Source: Streptomyces sp. CA-278952
Lineage (GTDB): Bacteria; Actinomycetota; Actinomycetes; Streptomycetales; Streptomycetaceae
Length of the DNA: 64,000 bases
Direction: 5' to 3'
Assembly (NCBI RefSeq): GCF_028747205.1
Contig: NZ_CP112880.1
Coordinates: 6,669,501 to 6,733,500 of the forward strand
The translations under genes and the position numbers were made by a program. Positions 29,068 through 55,780 of the stretch are shown one piece after another. Numbering within the stretch: the first letter of the stretch is position 1; each line of letters opens with the position of its first letter. The notes beneath the pieces are model-generated. The model searched no databases. It had not been told where the DNA came from and saw only the letters and a list, made by a program, of their open reading frames with translations.

Positions 29068-29385
29068 TGGCCGGGGGCGATTTCGGCCGTTCGGCGTGCC
29101 CGGCCGCGGGTGCGCCTGCGGCCTGTGCGCCTCGCGAGGGCCCCTGACCGGGGAGTCCTCGGCCGTTCGGCGTGCCCGGCCGCAGGAGCGCCCGCCTGCC
29201 TGTGCGCCCGCCTGCCTGTGCGCCTTTCGCGCCGCTCCTGGCGGGGCCCGCCCACCTTCTCGTCCGCGCAACACCTCCCCACCGTGCGTACCGGTCGGTA
29301 TGCTCGCCCGTGCCGGGGCTCCCACGCACGCCCGGCCCGAGTCGCCGACGTCCGCCTGCCACCGCCGCCGCCCCGGGGAGGGCCC
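29016..29385. other. Repeat-rich 370-bp intergenic region
   Basis: No gene supported. After the TGA-anchored repeats come an identical 25-bp direct repeat (29083-29107 and 29159-29183), two tandem copies of the 16-mer CGCCCGCCTGCCTGTG (about 29189-29220), and a TetR-type palindrome at 29284-29301. Confidence 0.7.
29284..29301. promoter_or_regulatory. TetR-type palindrome before molybdopterin oxidoreductase
   Basis: GTGCGTACCGGTCGGTAT. The core TACCGGTCGGTA is a near-perfect palindrome, and the right half GTCGGTAT is identical to that of the operator at 54388-54405. It sits 85 bp before the ATG. Confidence 0.4.
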
Positions 29386-47197: not shown

Positions 47198-47215
47198 ATA
47201 CCGACCGGTTAGTCT
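47198..47215. promoter_or_regulatory. TetR operator before the SDR-ligase-tetR operon
   Basis: ATACCGAC-CG-GTTAGTCT, 29 bp before the SDR start. The left half ATACCGAC is the exact reverse complement of the right half of the site at 54388-54405. It is the predicted target of tetR-49773 encoded in this operon. Confidence 0.6.
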
Positions 47216-47243
47216 GCCGGTGCAGCCGGATGGGAAGGGCGGG

Positions 47244-48014
47244 ATGACGATGGGTACGGTGCAGGGCGCCGGCGTAGTGGTCACAGGGGCCGGAGGCGGC
47301 ATCGGAGCCGCTCTGGCCCGCAGGTTCGCCGCCGGGGGCGCACGGGTCGTCGTCAACGACCTCGACCTCGCGCGGGTCGAACCGCTCGCGAAGGAGATCG
47401 GCGGCTTCGCCGTCGCCGGGGACGCCTCGGGCATCGTGGACGCCGCCCGGGAGGCGCTGGACGGCACGGTGGACGTCTACTGCGCCAACGCGGGCCTCGC
47501 CTCGCCCGGCGACGCGTTCGCCGACGAGGAGGTCTGGGCCGCCGCCTGGGACGTCAACGTGATGGCCCACGTCCGCGCGGCCAGGGCACTCCTGCCGGAG
47601 TGGCTGGAGCGCGGCAGCGGCCGTTTCGTCACCACCGCCTCCGCCGCCGGGCTGCTGACGATGATCGGCGCGGCCCCGTACAGCGTCACCAAGCACGGTG
47701 CGGTCGCCTTCGCCGAGTGGCTCTCCCTCACCTACCGCCACCGCGGGATCAAGGTCCACGCGATCTGCCCGCAGGGCGTGCGCACCGACATGCTCACCGC
47801 CGCCGGTTCGGCCGGCGAGCTGGTCCTCGCTCCCGGCGCCATCGAGCCGGACGCGGTCGCCAACGCGCTGTTCGAGGCGATGGACGCCGACCGCTTCCTG
47901 GTCCTGCCGCACCCCGAGGTGGCCGGCTACTACCAGGCCCGCGCCACCGATCCCGACCGGTGGATGGGCCAGATGAACCGCCTCCAGCAGAAGTGGGAGG
48001 CGAGCGGCGCATGA
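47244..48014 (+). CDS. Short-chain dehydrogenase/reductase
   Basis: 256 residues from ATG 47244 (GGAAGGG upstream; ATG 47250 possible). Rossmann motif VVVTGAGGGIGAA, NAG motif CANAGLA, catalytic Ser in TTASAAG and Tyr-x3-Lys in YSVTKHG. In this operon it could reduce a keto-acyl-CoA or oxidise a hydroxyacyl-CoA. It overlaps the ligase gene by 4 nt (ATGA). Confidence 0.93.
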   Translation: MTMGTVQGAGVVVTGAGGGIGAALARRFAAGGARVVVNDLDLARVEPLAKEIGGFAVAGDASGIVDAAREALDGTVDVYCANAGLASPGDAFADEEVWAAAWDVNVMAHVRAARALLPEWLERGSGRFVTTASAAGLLTMIGAAPYSVTKHGAVAFAEWLSLTYRHRGIKVHAICPQGVRTDMLTAAGSAGELVLAPGAIEPDAVANALFEAMDADRFLVLPHPEVAGYYQARATDPDRWMGQMNRLQQKWEASGA

Positions 48015-49723
48015 ACGACCCGACCCCCGGCCGTCCGGCTTCCGACGCCCCCGGATCCGACGGCTCGGTCTACGCGGCCCAGCCGTGGCTCGCCCTGCTC
48101 AGCGACGCCCAGCGCGCCCCCGTCACCCCGCCTGCGACCGTGCTGCACGCCTTCCGCGCCGCGGTCGGGCGCGCACCCGGGCACCCGGCCCTGGCCTACT
48201 TCGACGGCCGCCTGACCTACCGCGAGACCGACGAGCTGTCCGACTCGGTGGCCGGACACCTCGCCGCCCGCGGGGTGCGCCGCGGCGACCGGGTCGCGAT
48301 CATGCTCCAGAACAGCCCGCACTTCGTCCTAGCGCTGCTCGGCGCGTGGAAGGCGGGGGCCGTCGTCGTTCCCCTCAACCCGATGTACAAGTCGGGCGAG
48401 GTCGGCCATGTCCTCGCGGACGCCGGAGTCACCGCGCTGATCTGCTCGGACCGGGCGTGGGAGGCGTATCTGCGGGAGACCGCGGCGGCGGCCCCGCACC
48501 TCACCGTCGCGCTCACCGCCTGCGAGCTGGACCTCCAGACCGTGAACGACCCCCGCGTCCTCGGCTTCGAACGGCTCCCGGCCCCCGGCCCCGACGACCT
48601 GGCGGACGACCTGCTGACCGCCGCCCGAGCAGGGAACCCGGCCCCGGCGGACCGGGAGCTGACCTCAGCCGACACGGCGCTGATCAGCTACACCTCCGGG
48701 ACGAGCGGCACCCCCAAGGGCGCGATGAACGCCCACGGCAACATCATGGTCAACGCCGAACGCCAGCGCACCGGCCACCCGATCGCCGAGGGCTCCTCCT
48801 ACTTCGCCCTCGCCCCGCTCTTCCACATCACCGGCATGGTCTGCCAGCTCGCCGCCTGCGTCGCCAACGCGGGCACACTCGTCCTGGCCTACCGCTTCGA
48901 GGCGGGCGTCGTCCTGGAAGCCTTCGCCGCCCACCGCCCCGCCTACACCGTCGGCCCCTCCACCGCCTTCATGGCGCTGGCCGCGCATCCGGACGCCACC
49001 CCGGACCACTTCGCCTCGTTCCGGGTGATCTCCTCCGGCGGCGCGCCCCTGCCGCCCGCGCTCGTGGAGAAGTTCCGCGCGGGCTTCGGCCCGTACCTCC
49101 GCAACGGCTACGGACTCACCGAGTGCACCGCCCCCTGCGCCTCGGTCCCGCCCGAGCACGAGGCCCCGGTGGACCCGGTATCGGGCACCCTCTCCGTCGG
49201 CGTCCCGGGCCCCGACACCTTCGTACGGATCCTCGACGAGACCGGCCGGGAGGTCCCCTTCGGGGAGCAGGGCGAGATCGCGGTGCGCGGCCCCCAGGTC
49301 GTCTCCGGCTACTGGAACCTCCCCGAGGCCACGGCCGCCGCCTTCCCGGACGGCGAGCTGCGCACCGGCGACATCGGCTTCATGGACGCGGCGGGCTGGC
49401 TGTACGTCGTCGACCGCAAGAAGGACATGATCAACGCCTCCGGGTTCAAGGTGTGGCCGCGCGAGGTGGAGGATGTCCTCTACACCCACCCGGCGGTGCG
49501 CGAGGCGGCCGTCGTGGGCGTGCCCGACGCGTACCGCGGGGAGACGGTCCGGGCGCACGTGAGCCTGCGTCCGGGGGCCTCGGTGGAGCCCGGCGAGCTG
49601 AGCGCCTACTGCGGGGAACGGCTCGCCGCGTACAAGTATCCGCGCGAGGTGGAGATCCTGGCCGAGCTGCCGAAGACGGCGAGTGGGAAGATCCTCAGGC
49701 GGGAACTGCGTTCCCCCCGTTAG
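48011..49723 (+). CDS. Acyl-CoA synthetase (AMP-forming)
   Basis: 570 residues from ATG 48011. ANL-superfamily motifs: YTSGTSGTPKGA (A3), NGYGLTECTAP, GELRTGDIGFMD (A8), DRKKDMINASGFKVWPREVE and catalytic Lys560 in TASGKIL. It activates a free carboxylic acid to its CoA thioester with ATP. Middle gene of the SDR-ligase-tetR operon; tetR follows after 49 bp. Confidence 0.94.
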   Translation: MNDPTPGRPASDAPGSDGSVYAAQPWLALLSDAQRAPVTPPATVLHAFRAAVGRAPGHPALAYFDGRLTYRETDELSDSVAGHLAARGVRRGDRVAIMLQNSPHFVLALLGAWKAGAVVVPLNPMYKSGEVGHVLADAGVTALICSDRAWEAYLRETAAAAPHLTVALTACELDLQTVNDPRVLGFERLPAPGPDDLADDLLTAARAGNPAPADRELTSADTALISYTSGTSGTPKGAMNAHGNIMVNAERQRTGHPIAEGSSYFALAPLFHITGMVCQLAACVANAGTLVLAYRFEAGVVLEAFAAHRPAYTVGPSTAFMALAAHPDATPDHFASFRVISSGGAPLPPALVEKFRAGFGPYLRNGYGLTECTAPCASVPPEHEAPVDPVSGTLSVGVPGPDTFVRILDETGREVPFGEQGEIAVRGPQVVSGYWNLPEATAAAFPDGELRTGDIGFMDAAGWLYVVDRKKDMINASGFKVWPREVEDVLYTHPAVREAAVVGVPDAYRGETVRAHVSLRPGASVEPGELSAYCGERLAAYKYPREVEILAELPKTASGKILRRELRSPR

Positions 49724-49772
49724 AACGGCGTCGAAACAGCGCGCGCACGGTACGAAAGGAAGGTGGCGGCTC

Positions 49773-50366
49773 ATGGCCAAGGCGACGGATCAGAACGGCA
49801 CTCCCGTCCCTCAGAGGCTGCTGGCCGCCGCCACCCGGCTCTTCGCCGAGCGCGGGTACGACCGCACCTCGGTCCAGGAGATCGTCGAGGCGGCGGGCGT
49901 CACCAAGGGGGCGCTCTACCACTACTTCGGCTCCAAGGAGGACCTGCTCCAGGAGGTCTACGCCCGGGTGCTCCGGCTCCAGCAGGAGCGGCTGGACGCC
50001 TTCGCGGACGCCGAGGCGCCCGTCGAGCAGCGGCTGCGCGACGCGGCGGCCGACGTGGTCGTCACGACCATCGACAACCTGGACGACGCGGCGATCTTCT
50101 TCCGCTCCATGCACCACCTGAGCCCCGAGAAGAACAAGCAGGTGCGCGTCGAGCGCCGCCGCTACCACGAGCGCTTCCGGGCCCTGGTCGAGGAGGGCCA
50201 GCGCGGCGGCGTGTTCTCCTCGGCCACCCCCGCCGACCTGGTCGTCGACTACCACTTCGGCTCGGTCCACCACCTCTCCACCTGGTACCGCCCGGACGGC
50301 CCGCTCAGCCGCCAGGAGGTCGCCGACCACCTCGCGGATCTGCTGCTGCGGGCCCTGCGCCCGTAA
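49773..50366 (+). CDS. TetR-family regulator (KstR2/fatty-acid type)
   Basis: 197 residues from ATG 49773 (AAGGAAGG upstream). HTH: ATRLFAERGYDRTSVQEIV and VTKGALYHYFGSKEDLL. The C-terminal domain is of the type found in acyl-CoA-responsive TetRs (SMHHLSPEKNKQVRVERRRY). Its place at the end of a catabolic operon and the two ATACCGAC palindromes imply it represses its own operon and the kinase-dehydrogenase operon at 52-54 kb. Confidence 0.9.
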   Translation: MAKATDQNGTPVPQRLLAAATRLFAERGYDRTSVQEIVEAAGVTKGALYHYFGSKEDLLQEVYARVLRLQQERLDAFADAEAPVEQRLRDAAADVVVTTIDNLDDAAIFFRSMHHLSPEKNKQVRVERRRYHERFRALVEEGQRGGVFSSATPADLVVDYHFGSVHHLSTWYRPDGPLSRQEVADHLADLLLRALRP

Positions 50367-50677
50367 GCGGCTCCGGACCGGAACCGGGGCCGTCCACTGG
50401 CCCGCTCCGCCGGTCGGGGCGAGTCTGGATGTATGACGAATGTCCTGCCTCCCGATGAGGTGTTGAGGTTCACGGGCGAACCGCTGTTCGTTAATAGAAC
50501 GGCTGTGTCCGGTTTCCGCTCTTGACGGAGCACGGTCATTTCCTTGAGCATCGGTCACGCATCGCGCACCTCTGGGCCGCCTGTCCGGGCCCATGCTCCA
50601 GGACCCGGCCGGATCACCGCACGGCCGGGGACCCCCCGCACGTTCCGTCAGTCCCCAACGGAATCCGGAGCCCGTGA
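50367..50677. other. 311-bp region between tetR and aminopeptidase
   Basis: No gene seen. It contains an AT-rich inverted repeat GTTC-GTTAATA-GAAC at 50486-50500 and a TTGACG at 50522-50527 that could belong to the aminopeptidase promoter, though no good -10 is evident. Confidence 0.4.
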
Positions 50678-52012
<1,335 letters not shown>

Positions 52013-52030
52013 GCCTGCCGTATACGTACG

Positions 52031-52074
52031 GGTGCGGCCCCCTCCCGAAGAGCACCTCGGGAGGGGGCCGCACC
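52031..52074. terminator. Bidirectional hairpin
   Basis: Perfect 18-bp stem 52031-52048/52057-52074 with an 8-nt loop, between convergent aminopeptidase and acyl-CoA dehydrogenase genes. Confidence 0.85.
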
Positions 52075-52082
52075 GCTGTCCG

Positions 52083-53297
52083 TCACACGTACCGCTTGAT
52101 CTCCCGCCGGGCCAGCGACCGCTGGTGCACCTCGTCCGGCCCGTCCGCCAGCCGCAGCGTCCGCGCCGAGGCCCACAGCTCCGCCAGCGGGAAGTCCTGG
52201 CTCACCCCGCCCGCGCCGTACAGCTGCACCGCGGAGTCGAGGATGTCCACCACCGCGCGCGGGGTGGCGATCTTGATGGCCTGGATCTCGGTGTGCGCGC
52301 CCTTGTTGCCCACGGTGTCCATCAGCCAGGCCGTCTTCAGCACCAGCAGCCGCAACTGCTCCACCGTGACCCGGGCGTCCGCGATCCAGTTCTGCACGAC
52401 GCCCTGCTGGGCGAGCGGCTTGCCGAACGCCGTACGCGCCACCGCCCGCCGGCACATCAGCTCGATGGCCCGCTCCGCCATCCCGATGAGCCGCATGCAG
52501 TGGTGGATCCGCCCCGGACCCAGCCGCGCCTGCGCGATGGCGAAGCCGCCGCCCTCCTCGCCGATCAGGTTCGCCGCGGGCACCCGTACATCGTGGAAGA
52601 CCACCTCGGCGTGACCGCCGTGCGCGTGGTCCTCGTACCCGTACACCCGCATCGCGCGCCGCACTTCGAGGCCCGGGGTGTCGCGCGGCACCAGGATCAT
52701 CGACTGCTGGCGGCGGATGTCCGCGCCGTCCGGGTCGGTCTTGCCCATCACGATGAAGACCGCGCACTCCGGGTTCATCGCCCCGGAGATGTACCACTTG
52801 CGCCCGTTGACGACGTAGTCCTCGCCGTCCCGCGCGATCCGGGTCTCGATGTTCGTCGCGTCCGAGGACGCCACGTCCGGCTCCGTCATCGCGAACGCGG
52901 AGCGGATCTCCCCGGCGAGCAACGGCTCCAGCCACCGCTTCTTCTGCTCGTCGGTGCCGAACTGGAAGAGCACCTCCATGTTCCCGGTGTCCGGGGCCGC
53001 GCAGTTCAGCGCGGTCGGCGCGAGATGCGGGGAGCGTCCGGTGATCTCCGCGAGCGGGGCGTACTGGAGGTTCGTCAGCCCGGCCCCGTACTCCCCGTCC
53101 GGCAGGAAGAGGTTCCACAGCCCCTGCCGCCGCGCCTCGGCCTTCAGCTCACCCACCACCGCCGGGGTGTCCCACGGGGATGCGAGCCGCGCCCGCTGCT
53201 CCTCGGCGACCTCCTCGGCCGGATACACGTGCTCGTCCATGAACGCGAGCAGCCTGCTCCGCAGCTCCTCGGTACGGGCGTCGAATGCGAAGTCCAT
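52083..53297 (-). CDS. ACAD10/11-type acyl-CoA dehydrogenase
   Basis: 404 residues from ATG 53297, 5 bp after the kinase-like gene's stop. APDTGNMEVLFQFGT, RSAFAMTEPDVASSDATNI and WYISGAMNPECAVFIVMGK are typical of the ACAD10/ACAD11 branch rather than classic beta-oxidation dehydrogenases. In that branch, a partner kinase phosphorylates 4-hydroxyacyl-CoA and the dehydrogenase domain removes phosphate to form the enoyl-CoA. Here the two functions are separate, adjacent genes. Confidence 0.92.
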   Translation of the reverse strand: MDFAFDARTEELRSRLLAFMDEHVYPAEEVAEEQRARLASPWDTPAVVGELKAEARRQGLWNLFLPDGEYGAGLTNLQYAPLAEITGRSPHLAPTALNCAAPDTGNMEVLFQFGTDEQKKRWLEPLLAGEIRSAFAMTEPDVASSDATNIETRIARDGEDYVVNGRKWYISGAMNPECAVFIVMGKTDPDGADIRRQQSMILVPRDTPGLEVRRAMRVYGYEDHAHGGHAEVVFHDVRVPAANLIGEEGGGFAIAQARLGPGRIHHCMRLIGMAERAIELMCRRAVARTAFGKPLAQQGVVQNWIADARVTVEQLRLLVLKTAWLMDTVGNKGAHTEIQAIKIATPRAVVDILDSAVQLYGAGGVSQDFPLAELWASARTLRLADGPDEVHQRSLARREIKRYV

Positions 53298-53302
53298 GGG
53301 GT

Positions 53303-54325
53303 TCAGCCTTCCTGGAGGGTGGTGAGGCCGTGCTCGATGAAGACGGGGACCAGATCGCCGATCCGGTCGAAGCCCGCGCCGACGGTCTGACCGAGGGTGT
53401 AGCGGTAGTGGATGCCCTCCAGGATCACGGCGAGCTTGAACCACGCGAACGCGGTGTACCAGGAGATGGCGGAGGTGTCCCGGCCCGAGCGGGCCGCGTA
53501 GCGCTCGATCAGCTCGGCGGGGGACGGATGCCCGGCCGCGCCGCTGGTGGTGGAGACGGGCGACCGGGGCAGGTCGAGGTCGGAGCTGTACATCACCAGC
53601 AGCCCGAGGTCGGTCAGCGGATCACCGAGCGTGGACATCTCCCAGTCGAGGACGGCCTCGATCCGGTCGTCGGAGCCGAGCAGCACGTTGTCCAGGCGGT
53701 AGTCGCCGTGGACGACGGTGGGCGCGGGGGAGGAGGGCAGCCCGCGGCCGAGGGAGGCGTGCAGCTCGTCGATGCCCGCCAGCTCGCGGTTGCGGGAGGC
53801 GTCCAACTGCTTGCCCCAGCGCCGCAACTGCCGGTCCAGGAAGCCGTCGGGACGCCCGAAGTCCCCGAGCCCGACCGCCCCGGGGTCCACGGCGTGCAGG
53901 TCGACCAGGGTGTCGACGAGCCCGAGGACCGCCGCCCGGGTGCGCTCCGGGCCCAGCGGGGCGAGCTGCTCGGCGGTGCGGTACGGGGTGCCCTCGACGT
54001 ACTCCATCACGTAGAACGGGGCGCCGATCACGCTGTCGTCCTCGCAGAGCAGCAGCGGCTCCGGCACCGGGACGGCGGTGGGGTACAGGCCGCTGATCAC
54101 CCGGTGCTCGCGCGTCATGTCGTGCGCGGTGGCCAGCACATGGCCGAGCGGAGGCCTGCGCACCACCCACTGCCCCGTCCCGTCGCCGACGACGTACGTC
54201 AGGTTCGAGCGACCGCCCTCGATCAGCCGCGCTTCGAGGGGTCCGCTCACCAGCCCCGGCCGCTCGCGGTCGAGATGGCCGCGCAGCAGCTCCGGGTCGA
54301 GACCTGGTGGGGGGACTGAACTCAT
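53303..54325 (-). CDS. Phosphotransferase (APH family), putative 4-hydroxyacyl-CoA kinase
   Basis: 340 residues. APH/choline-kinase fold: SNLTYVVGDGTGQWVVRRPP (nucleotide loop), catalytic loop VVHGDYRLDNVLL and metal Asp in VLDWEMSTLGDP. The sequence type (RRPPLGHVLATAHDMTREHRV, YVMEYVEGTPYR) is that of the kinase domain fused to human ACAD10/11 and of LvaA in levulinate catabolism. It is first in a two-gene operon with the ACAD10/11-type dehydrogenase. A TetR palindrome lies 62 bp upstream. Confidence 0.88.
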   Translation of the reverse strand: MSSVPPPGLDPELLRGHLDRERPGLVSGPLEARLIEGGRSNLTYVVGDGTGQWVVRRPPLGHVLATAHDMTREHRVISGLYPTAVPVPEPLLLCEDDSVIGAPFYVMEYVEGTPYRTAEQLAPLGPERTRAAVLGLVDTLVDLHAVDPGAVGLGDFGRPDGFLDRQLRRWGKQLDASRNRELAGIDELHASLGRGLPSSPAPTVVHGDYRLDNVLLGSDDRIEAVLDWEMSTLGDPLTDLGLLVMYSSDLDLPRSPVSTTSGAAGHPSPAELIERYAARSGRDTSAISWYTAFAWFKLAVILEGIHYRYTLGQTVGAGFDRIGDLVPVFIEHGLTTLQEG

Positions 54326-54387
54326 GGTGCGTACCTCCGGGCGACGGAACAGGGCGGGGCGAGGCGACTGGACGATCGGGAACCATG

Positions 54388-54405
54388 ATGCCGACCAGTC
54401 GGTAT
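54388..54405. promoter_or_regulatory. TetR operator before the kinase-ACAD operon
   Basis: ATGCCGAC-CA-GTCGGTAT, a palindrome with one mismatched pair. It is 63 bp from the kinase start (minus) and 86 bp from the divergent dehydratase start (plus). Confidence 0.6.
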
Positions 54406-54490: not shown

Positions 54491-55780
54491 ATGAATACAG
54501 ATGATCTGGTGATCGAAGGCGTCCGGCTCACCCCGATCCTCGTGTCCGATCCACCCCTGCTGAACACCCAGGGAGTCCACCAGCCGTACACCCCACGCCT
54601 GATCGTGGAGGCCGTCACCCGGGGCGGAACCACCGGCGTGGGGGAGACCTACGGCGACGGCGCCTACCTGGAGCCCGCACGCTCCCTCGCCGAGGCGCTC
54701 CCGGGCCGGGCGGTCACCGATCTGAACGGGCTGTTCGCCCTGGCCGAGGAGGTGTGCGGCGCATCGCGCGCCGCCGACGACCGGGTCGACGCCGGGGGAC
54801 TGCGCGGAGTCAGGAACGCGGAGAAGATCCGGCTCTCGGTCGTCTCCGCCTTCGAGGTCGCCTGCCTGGACGCCCTCGGCAAGGCCCGGGGCCTGCCCGT
54901 GCACGCCCTGCTCGGCGGCAAGGTCCGTGACACCGTCGAGTACAGCGCCTACCTCTTCTACCGCTGGGCCGCCCACCCCGGCCCCGGCGAGAGGGACGAC
55001 TGGGGCGCGGCGCTCGACCCGGCCGGCGTCGTCGCCCAGGCCCGGCGCTTCGCCGACACCTACGGCTTCGGCTCCTTCAAGCTCAAGGGCGGCGTCTTCG
55101 AGCCCGACCGGGAGATCGCCGCGATACACGCCCTGGCCGAGGCGTTCCCGGGCCGCCCGCTGCGCCTGGACCCGAACGGCGCCTGGTCCGTCCCCACCTC
55201 GCTGTACGTCGCCGAGCGGCTGAGGGGCGTCCTCGAATACCTGGAGGACCCCACCAGCGGCACGGCCGGCATGGCCGCCGTCTCGGCCGGAACCGACGTC
55301 CCGCTCGCCACCAACATGTGCGTCACCACCCTCGCCGAGCTCCCCGAGGCCTTCGCCCGTGACGCCGTCCAGATCGTCCTGAGCGACCACCACTACTGGG
55401 GCGGACTGCACCGCACCCGGGAACTGGCGGCCATCTGCCGCACGTTCGGCGTCGGACTCTCCATGCACTCCAACACCCACCTCGGCATCAGCCTCGCCGC
55501 GATGACCCACGTCGCCGCCACGGTGCCTGACCTCGGTCACGCCTGCGACAGCCACTACCCCTGGCAGACCGAGGACGTCATCACCGAGCGCCACACCTTC
55601 ACCGGCGGCCGGCTGACCGTCTCCGACGCCCCCGGCCTCGGCGTCGAACTGGACCGTGAGCGCCTGTCCGCCCTGCACCGGCGCTGGCTGGCGGACGAGA
55701 CCCACCGCGAGCGCGACGACGCGGCGGCGATGCGCGCCGCCGACCCGGAGTGGACGACGCCGGCGGTCCCGCGCTGGTGA
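54491..55780 (+). CDS. Enolase-superfamily dehydratase, glucarate dehydratase-like
   Basis: 429 residues. The capping domain begins GVRLTPILVSDPPLLNTQGVH, as in glucarate dehydratase. The barrel carries GSFKLKGGVF (catalytic Lys pair), LRLDPNGAW and LEDPTSGTAGM (metal ligands), and SMHSNTHLGISLA with the catalytic His. It should dehydrate D-glucarate to 5-keto-4-deoxyglucarate. No other glucarate-pathway genes are adjacent. The 3' end including the stop is triplicated. Confidence 0.9.
   Translation: MNTDDLVIEGVRLTPILVSDPPLLNTQGVHQPYTPRLIVEAVTRGGTTGVGETYGDGAYLEPARSLAEALPGRAVTDLNGLFALAEEVCGASRAADDRVDAGGLRGVRNAEKIRLSVVSAFEVACLDALGKARGLPVHALLGGKVRDTVEYSAYLFYRWAAHPGPGERDDWGAALDPAGVVAQARRFADTYGFGSFKLKGGVFEPDREIAAIHALAEAFPGRPLRLDPNGAWSVPTSLYVAERLRGVLEYLEDPTSGTAGMAAVSAGTDVPLATNMCVTTLAELPEAFARDAVQIVLSDHHYWGGLHRTRELAAICRTFGVGLSMHSNTHLGISLAAMTHVAATVPDLGHACDSHYPWQTEDVITERHTFTGGRLTVSDAPGLGVELDRERLSALHRRWLADETHRERDDAAAMRAADPEWTTPAVPRW

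Follow-up and report, generated by a model that had tools for sequence, protein, structure and literature searches.

A TetR-linked gene pair of the ACAD10/11 type, predicted to act on 4-hydroxy acids, in Streptomyces sp. CA-278952

The chemistry of 4-hydroxy acid degradation is already known from mammals and Proteobacteria. Mammalian ACAD10 and ACAD11 combine a kinase with an acyl-CoA dehydrogenase (ACAD) of the Asp type in a fused polypeptide, and activities as well as mutants have been published (PMC12440821, PMC11342911). The ACAD part of ACAD11 uses D753 as base and R626, H634 and R637 at the phosphate, while D220, N225 and R176, an arginine on the CoA side, are the residues named for the kinase part (PMC12440821). 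Separate kinase and ACAD proteins of a proteobacterium were shown to be able to stand in for the domains of ACAD10 (PMC11342911). Pseudomonas putida KT2440 harbors the operon lvaABCDE, in which a kinase (LvaA), an ACAD (LvaC), a short-chain dehydrogenase/reductase (SDR; LvaD) and a ligase (LvaE) convert levulinate via a phosphorylated intermediate (PMC6692424, PMC11342911, PMC12440821). Homologues of lvaABCD occur in Alpha-, Beta- and Gammaproteobacteria (PMC6692424, citing Rand 2017). Here, a locus with these enzyme classes is described in a 64-kb stretch of DNA with 72% G+C (the window) from Streptomyces sp. CA-278952, whose genome is one contig of 8.2 Mb. The locus probably encodes an actinobacterial version of the ACAD10/11 route (LvaA/LvaC type) for 4-hydroxy acids, apparently under a TetR-family regulator. 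An initial annotation of the DNA held that such a system is not known to be described in Streptomyces, and no report was found among the papers listed from an open-access collection, judged by titles and the beginnings of abstracts. The accessory gene set, the TetR regulator with its operator and the near-universal presence in Streptomycetaceae look new.

The genes form two operons, in agreement with the initial annotation. Operon 1 (47244-50366, + strand) comprises an SDR oxidoreductase (47244-48014; Pfam adh_short), predicted to interconvert keto and hydroxy groups on acyl-CoA, an acyl-CoA ligase (48011-49723; Pfam AMP-binding), whose start overlaps the SDR stop by 4 bases (ATGA), and the TetR-family regulator (49773-50366; Pfam TetR_N and TetR_C_24). 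Operon 2 (52083-54325, - strand) consists of an APH-type kinase, a predicted 4-hydroxyacyl-CoA kinase (53303-54325), and, 5 bases behind it, the ACAD (52083-53297). All five genes are intact open reading frames (ORFs) and Pfam agrees on every class, while among the matches listed (for the SDR and the ligase, the best 25) no NCBIfam model reaches its cut-off for the locus proteins. The similar palindromes noted earlier ahead of both operons were also found: the operator-like ATACCGACCGGTTAGTCT lies 5' of the SDR gene (47198-47215; 12/18 positions palindromic, 15/18 against the consensus), and the operator ATGCCGACCAGTCGGTAT lies 5' of the kinase gene (54388-54405; 14/18 positions palindromic).

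The window ACAD is 55% identical to ACAD11. A PDB search with it yielded ACAD11 (8v3u, 8v3v, 2wbi) and 4hr3 at E <=4e-133, ordinary ACADs following only from 2e-42. By alignment, D385, R258, H266 and R269 are the counterparts of ACAD11 D753, R626, H634 and R637, respectively. The catalytic Asp (D385, in the motif ADGPDEVH) replaces the usual Glu, and both this motif and the phosphate-pocket motif HCMR are present in 20/20 Streptomycetaceae loci. The strain's own genome holds 26 ACAD matches, of which the window ACAD alone carries the Asp base together with the R/H/R set. In the 25 others, a few of which (e.g. L199) align poorly, the base is never an Asp, and counterparts of R626 and H634 are absent throughout. 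In a tree of 36 ACADs, including 20 of the 25 paralogs (five were left out for short alignments), the window ACAD falls inside a 13-member clade of Asp-type ACADs (support 100/99) on the ACAD11 branch. Two of the six ACADs in the tree that are linked to DUF6285 genes (Sulfitobacter, Variovorax) are Glu-type and lie outside this clade; the nearest ACAD gene had been taken in these cases, possibly the wrong one. Judged by residues and tree, the window ACAD is assigned to the ACAD10/11 (LvaC) type.

The kinase reached 237 bits against PDB entry 9o56 (41% identity), 176 bits against 3dxp and 174 bits against the kinase domain of ACAD11 (35% identity). Its residues D208, N213 and R165 align with D220, N225 and R176 of ACAD11; the printed chain of ACAD11 is numbered one behind PMC12440821, and no counterpart could be assigned to R86 of that paper. 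A tree of 45 kinases, picked from the loci at hand and thus indicating two lineages rather than all lineages, splits with support 100/100 into 26 ACAD11-like kinases, the window's included, and 19 kinases adjoining a DUF6285 gene. The counterpart of R176 is kept in 26/26 of the former and in 0/19 of the latter. Neither scores nor trees placed the kinase with unrelated APH enzymes or the ACAD with ordinary beta-oxidation dehydrogenases, the outcome named at the outset as contrary to the reading, which was not refuted. From these sequence comparisons, kinase and ACAD are classed as a pair of the ACAD10/11 type. D753, R626, H634 and R637 of the ACAD part and D220, N225 and R176 of the kinase part of ACAD11 (PMC12440821) are all matched in the window, but kinase and ACAD are encoded by two separate genes rather than as a fused polypeptide, as are LvaA and LvaC and the proteobacterial proteins that can stand in for the ACAD10 domains (PMC11342911). 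Further differences to ACAD10/11 are the linked SDR, ligase and TetR genes and the lack of a HAD domain gene at the locus.

A kinase match was present in 120/121 Streptomycetaceae genomes, with a credible homologue in 116/121; four matches were weak (E 1e-5 to 1e-4; G098, G010, G022, G117) and one genome (G015) had none. Seven of the 116 credible kinases have identities of about 49-51%, the others of at least 55%. ACAD (threshold E <=1e-60) and TetR (E <=1e-40) are likewise absent from the five kinase-less genomes, 5/5 in each case; the ligase was unmatched in them as well, which proves little, as no genome in that search matched. A TetR ortholog was detected in 85/121 genomes. Around the kinase, in 20 loci of 20 kb, the ACAD occurred in 20/20, always side by side with the kinase, TetR and SDR in 16/20 each, and the ligase in 11/20. 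A 17th TetR gene among these loci (G113) lies about 13 kb from the kinase. In four more distant members (L047-L050), the TetR and kinase genes are divergently oriented at a distance of 0.3 to 1.2 kb. Public annotations of the relatives read 'phosphotransferase family protein' for the kinase and 'acyl-CoA dehydrogenase family protein' for the ACAD, the former label being open to misreading as drug resistance.

Of all sites in the 8.2-Mb genome, the kinase-side palindrome matches the operator best, with 1 mismatch. Kinase promoters were scored in 105/121 genomes; left out were the five without a kinase, the seven with kinase matches of about 50% (G001, G004, G018, G020, G029, G031, G038), G074 (76% complete), G085 (kinase match in two pieces), G008 and G062. 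Where a TetR ortholog is present, the site occurs at the kinase promoter in 77/78 genomes at >=14/18 and in 76/78 at >=16/18. For G070, the single miss, the score refers to a second copy of the kinase gene and not to the copy beside its TetR. Genomes without a TetR ortholog have the site in 1/27 (G116, 15/18). The operator is kept across 12 genera. Size-matched random windows drawn from the 20 loci reached 14/18 in 15/500, true sites included. In 76/77 genomes with both genes on one contig, TetR lies <=7 kb from the kinase. Control of the kinase promoter by TetR is thus strongly supported as a prediction. Control of the SDR operon is moderately supported: a similar site recurs upstream of the SDR in relatives, which makes the site in the window more than a chance match. 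It scored >=15/18 in 7/16 related loci with an SDR and >=13/18 in 11/16, a match of 13/18 being near background. A site of >=14/18 precedes the TetR gene itself in 7/16 loci, in three of them between TetR and kinase. The earlier proposal of one TetR over both operons has good support at the kinase promoter and moderate support at the SDR promoter.

In the PDB, the window TetR matches 3vpr best (residues 12-195, E 8e-25). We take this entry to be PfmR from Thermus, which regulates fatty acid and phenylacetate genes. Its operator, presumably TACCGACCGNTNGGTN, would be close to both window sites.

The SDR shares 77%, 55% and 43% identity with the SDRs that neighbour ACAD11-type pairs in S. cathayae, Tsukamurella and Deinococcus, respectively. 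The identities in Deinococcus and Tsukamurella suggest that the SDR accompanies the ACAD11-type pair in two phyla, though not everywhere. The best NCBIfam models of the ligase are long-chain-fatty-acid--CoA ligases, below their cut-offs, and may point to a medium- or long-chain rather than a C5 substrate. In the proposed pathway, the ligase would form the coenzyme A thioester of a 4-hydroxy acid or a 4-oxo acid, or of a longer hydroxy fatty acid from which beta-oxidation produces one. The SDR would interconvert keto and hydroxy group on the acyl-CoA. Phosphorylation of the 4-hydroxyl by the kinase, with D208 as catalytic residue, would turn 4-hydroxyacyl-CoA into 4-phosphoacyl-CoA. The Asp-type ACAD, with D385 as base and R258, H266 and R269 at the phosphate, would then remove the phosphate to yield 2-enoyl-CoA. 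FAD would pass through its reduced state and back in each cycle, with no net oxidation, as proposed for ACAD10/11 (PMC12440821, PMC11342911). The 2-enoyl-CoA would enter ordinary beta-oxidation. The regulator would bind the similar palindromes ahead of both operons and be released by an acyl-CoA of the pathway. Hydroxy fatty acids shortened by beta-oxidation, rather than levulinate, may be the source of the substrate; ricinoleate gives 4-hydroxydecanoate in microorganisms (cited in PMC12440821). The initial annotation had proposed the same chemistry on 4-hydroxy or 4-keto acids: scores, residues and trees bear out the ACAD10/11-type pair, and the substrate is retained as a prediction. A precise, testable function is thereby proposed for a gene pair of nearly all Streptomycetaceae genomes examined. 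The 4-hydroxy acid route, recently worked out, would thereby reach beyond mammals and Proteobacteria to antibiotic producers, where it would form a conserved module under regulation, with a TetR that, having a defined operator, is a candidate sensor for 4-hydroxyacyl-CoAs.

Several observations weigh against parts of this reading. The SDR-side site (3 mismatches) is one of 9 genomic sites with <=3 mismatches, compared with 3 for a reversed control pattern, and is by itself not unusual genome-wide. It scored <15/18 in 9/16 related loci with an SDR, and the TetR gene in the window itself lacks a good site (12/18). The TetR-less genomes comprise 26/27 from one genus plus one, about two independent losses, and the Fisher p of 2e-22 for operator versus TetR is therefore overstated. 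The SDR is only about 27-33% identical to the SDRs near the kinase of Rhodococcus opacus (L058) and in proteobacterial clusters. The ligase was found in no more than 11/20 related loci, and the suggested chain length derives from ligase models with cut-offs unmet.

The same enzymes may serve another substrate, with the hydroxyl elsewhere in the chain or with a branched or terpenoid acid, the SDR and ligase marking a special carbon source. We regard this as unlikely. The top PDB match of the SDR is a (3R)-hydroxyacyl-CoA dehydrogenase, and elsewhere in bacteria the pair is embedded in catabolic clusters of mixed content that include MaoC, HAD or histidine phosphatase genes, both of which would suit such a substrate; yet every residue that holds the 4-phosphate in ACAD11 is kept in the window ACAD.

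Still less likely is the levulinate pathway proper, in which ligase (LvaE), SDR (LvaD), kinase (LvaA) and ACAD (LvaC) would act on C5 levulinate and 4-hydroxyvalerate. The enzyme classes and the chemistry of ACAD and kinase are the same. The SDR and the ligase, however, share only 29.6% and 31.7% identity with their counterparts in an lva-ordered Azotobacter operon (L170), which serves as a proxy for the Lva proteins of P. putida KT2440 and is perhaps not lva itself. The regulator at the locus is of the TetR family and not the sigma54-type LvaR, and the system was therefore not classed as an lva operon. The closest models of the ligase are long-chain ones. A DUF6285 gene was found in 0/21 genomes, the own genome included; we assume that LvaB is the DUF6285 protein. 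The best 80 of 399 DUF6285 loci in named genomes all have titles of Actinomycetota, none of Pseudomonas. The absence of LvaB is a weak objection, since P. citronellolis likewise has no LvaB near its lva genes (PMC6692424). LvaC of KT2440 is 56% identical to ACAD11 (PMC11342911), near the 55% of the window ACAD. Compared with lvaABCDE of KT2440 (PMC6692424), the locus differs in its TetR for LvaR, in its two operons, in the lack of a DUF6285 gene and in an SDR and a ligase of about 30% identity to the proxy, and a levulinate reading of the locus appears weak.

An ordinary beta-oxidation ACAD lying by chance beside an aminoglycoside-type kinase, as the Pfam label APH and PDB names including 'aminoglycoside phosphotransferase' might suggest, is scarcely credible and is contradicted by scores (the APH(3') model, which has a cut-off of 205, gives 29.9 bits, the ACAD11 kinase 174 bits), by the Asp-type residues, by both trees and by the adjacency of kinase and ACAD in 20/20 loci.

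A wider extension of the proposed 4-hydroxy acid route is very doubtful. The TetR would sense 4-hydroxy(phospho)acyl-CoA, and a family-wide module would clear 4-hydroxy acids including ring-opened gamma-lactones and could join the turnover of the gamma-butyrolactone signals that the genus itself makes.

Related gene sets occur outside the Streptomycetaceae loci discussed so far or on mobile elements. On a 150-kb linear plasmid of S. cathayae (L063, 8216-14219), kinase, ACAD and SDR genes are flanked by genes annotated as IS3 transposases, and the three may thus be mobile as a unit. In Rhodococcus opacus (L058, 6102-9011) and Tsukamurella (L059, 6137-10233), a HAD phosphatase is encoded two genes before the ACAD11-type kinase, reminiscent of the HAD domain that mammalian ACAD10 carries. 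Genes for a histidine phosphatase are repeatedly found next to the kinase (L062, L261, L264) or beside the DUF6285 neighbour of a kinase (L171, L174), and also in the lva cluster of P. citronellolis (PMC6692424); a rescue of stalled phospho-intermediates is a possible role. The DUF6285 genes adjoin the second, distinct kinase lineage in Actinomycetota, Thermus and Proteobacteria (L067-L072, L080, L170-L175). On a plasmid of Sulfitobacter alexandrii (L265, 2851-7215), genes for a kinase, a hypothetical protein of 157 aa, a ligase and an ACAD of the ACAD11 type follow one another. The small protein, a possible LvaB-like partner, did not match the DUF6285 protein of Azotobacter. At a kinase locus of Cupriavidus (L060), no ACAD was detected among the 10 ORFs scanned.

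A further operator match of 14/18 lies at position 29284 of the window. Seven other operator-like sites were located outside the window, and ten ORFs from 5/7 of these loci (all but L054 and L057) were scanned with Pfam. They comprise LuxR-, PucR-, penicillinase-repressor- and LysR-type regulators, a histidine phosphatase, a cyclophilin, a GNAT protein, a thiamine phosphate synthase and two ORFs without a family. No obvious lipid gene was among these ten, and the seven sites were treated as chance matches rather than as a wider regulon. A gene that by eye resembles the enolase superfamily (glucarate dehydratase-like; 54491-55780), divergent from the kinase, has no evident link to the pathway and lies near the kinase in 7/20 loci. 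Between the two operons, a gene for a secreted M28 peptidase (50678-52012, + strand) is shared with 1/20 related loci, that of the closest relative.

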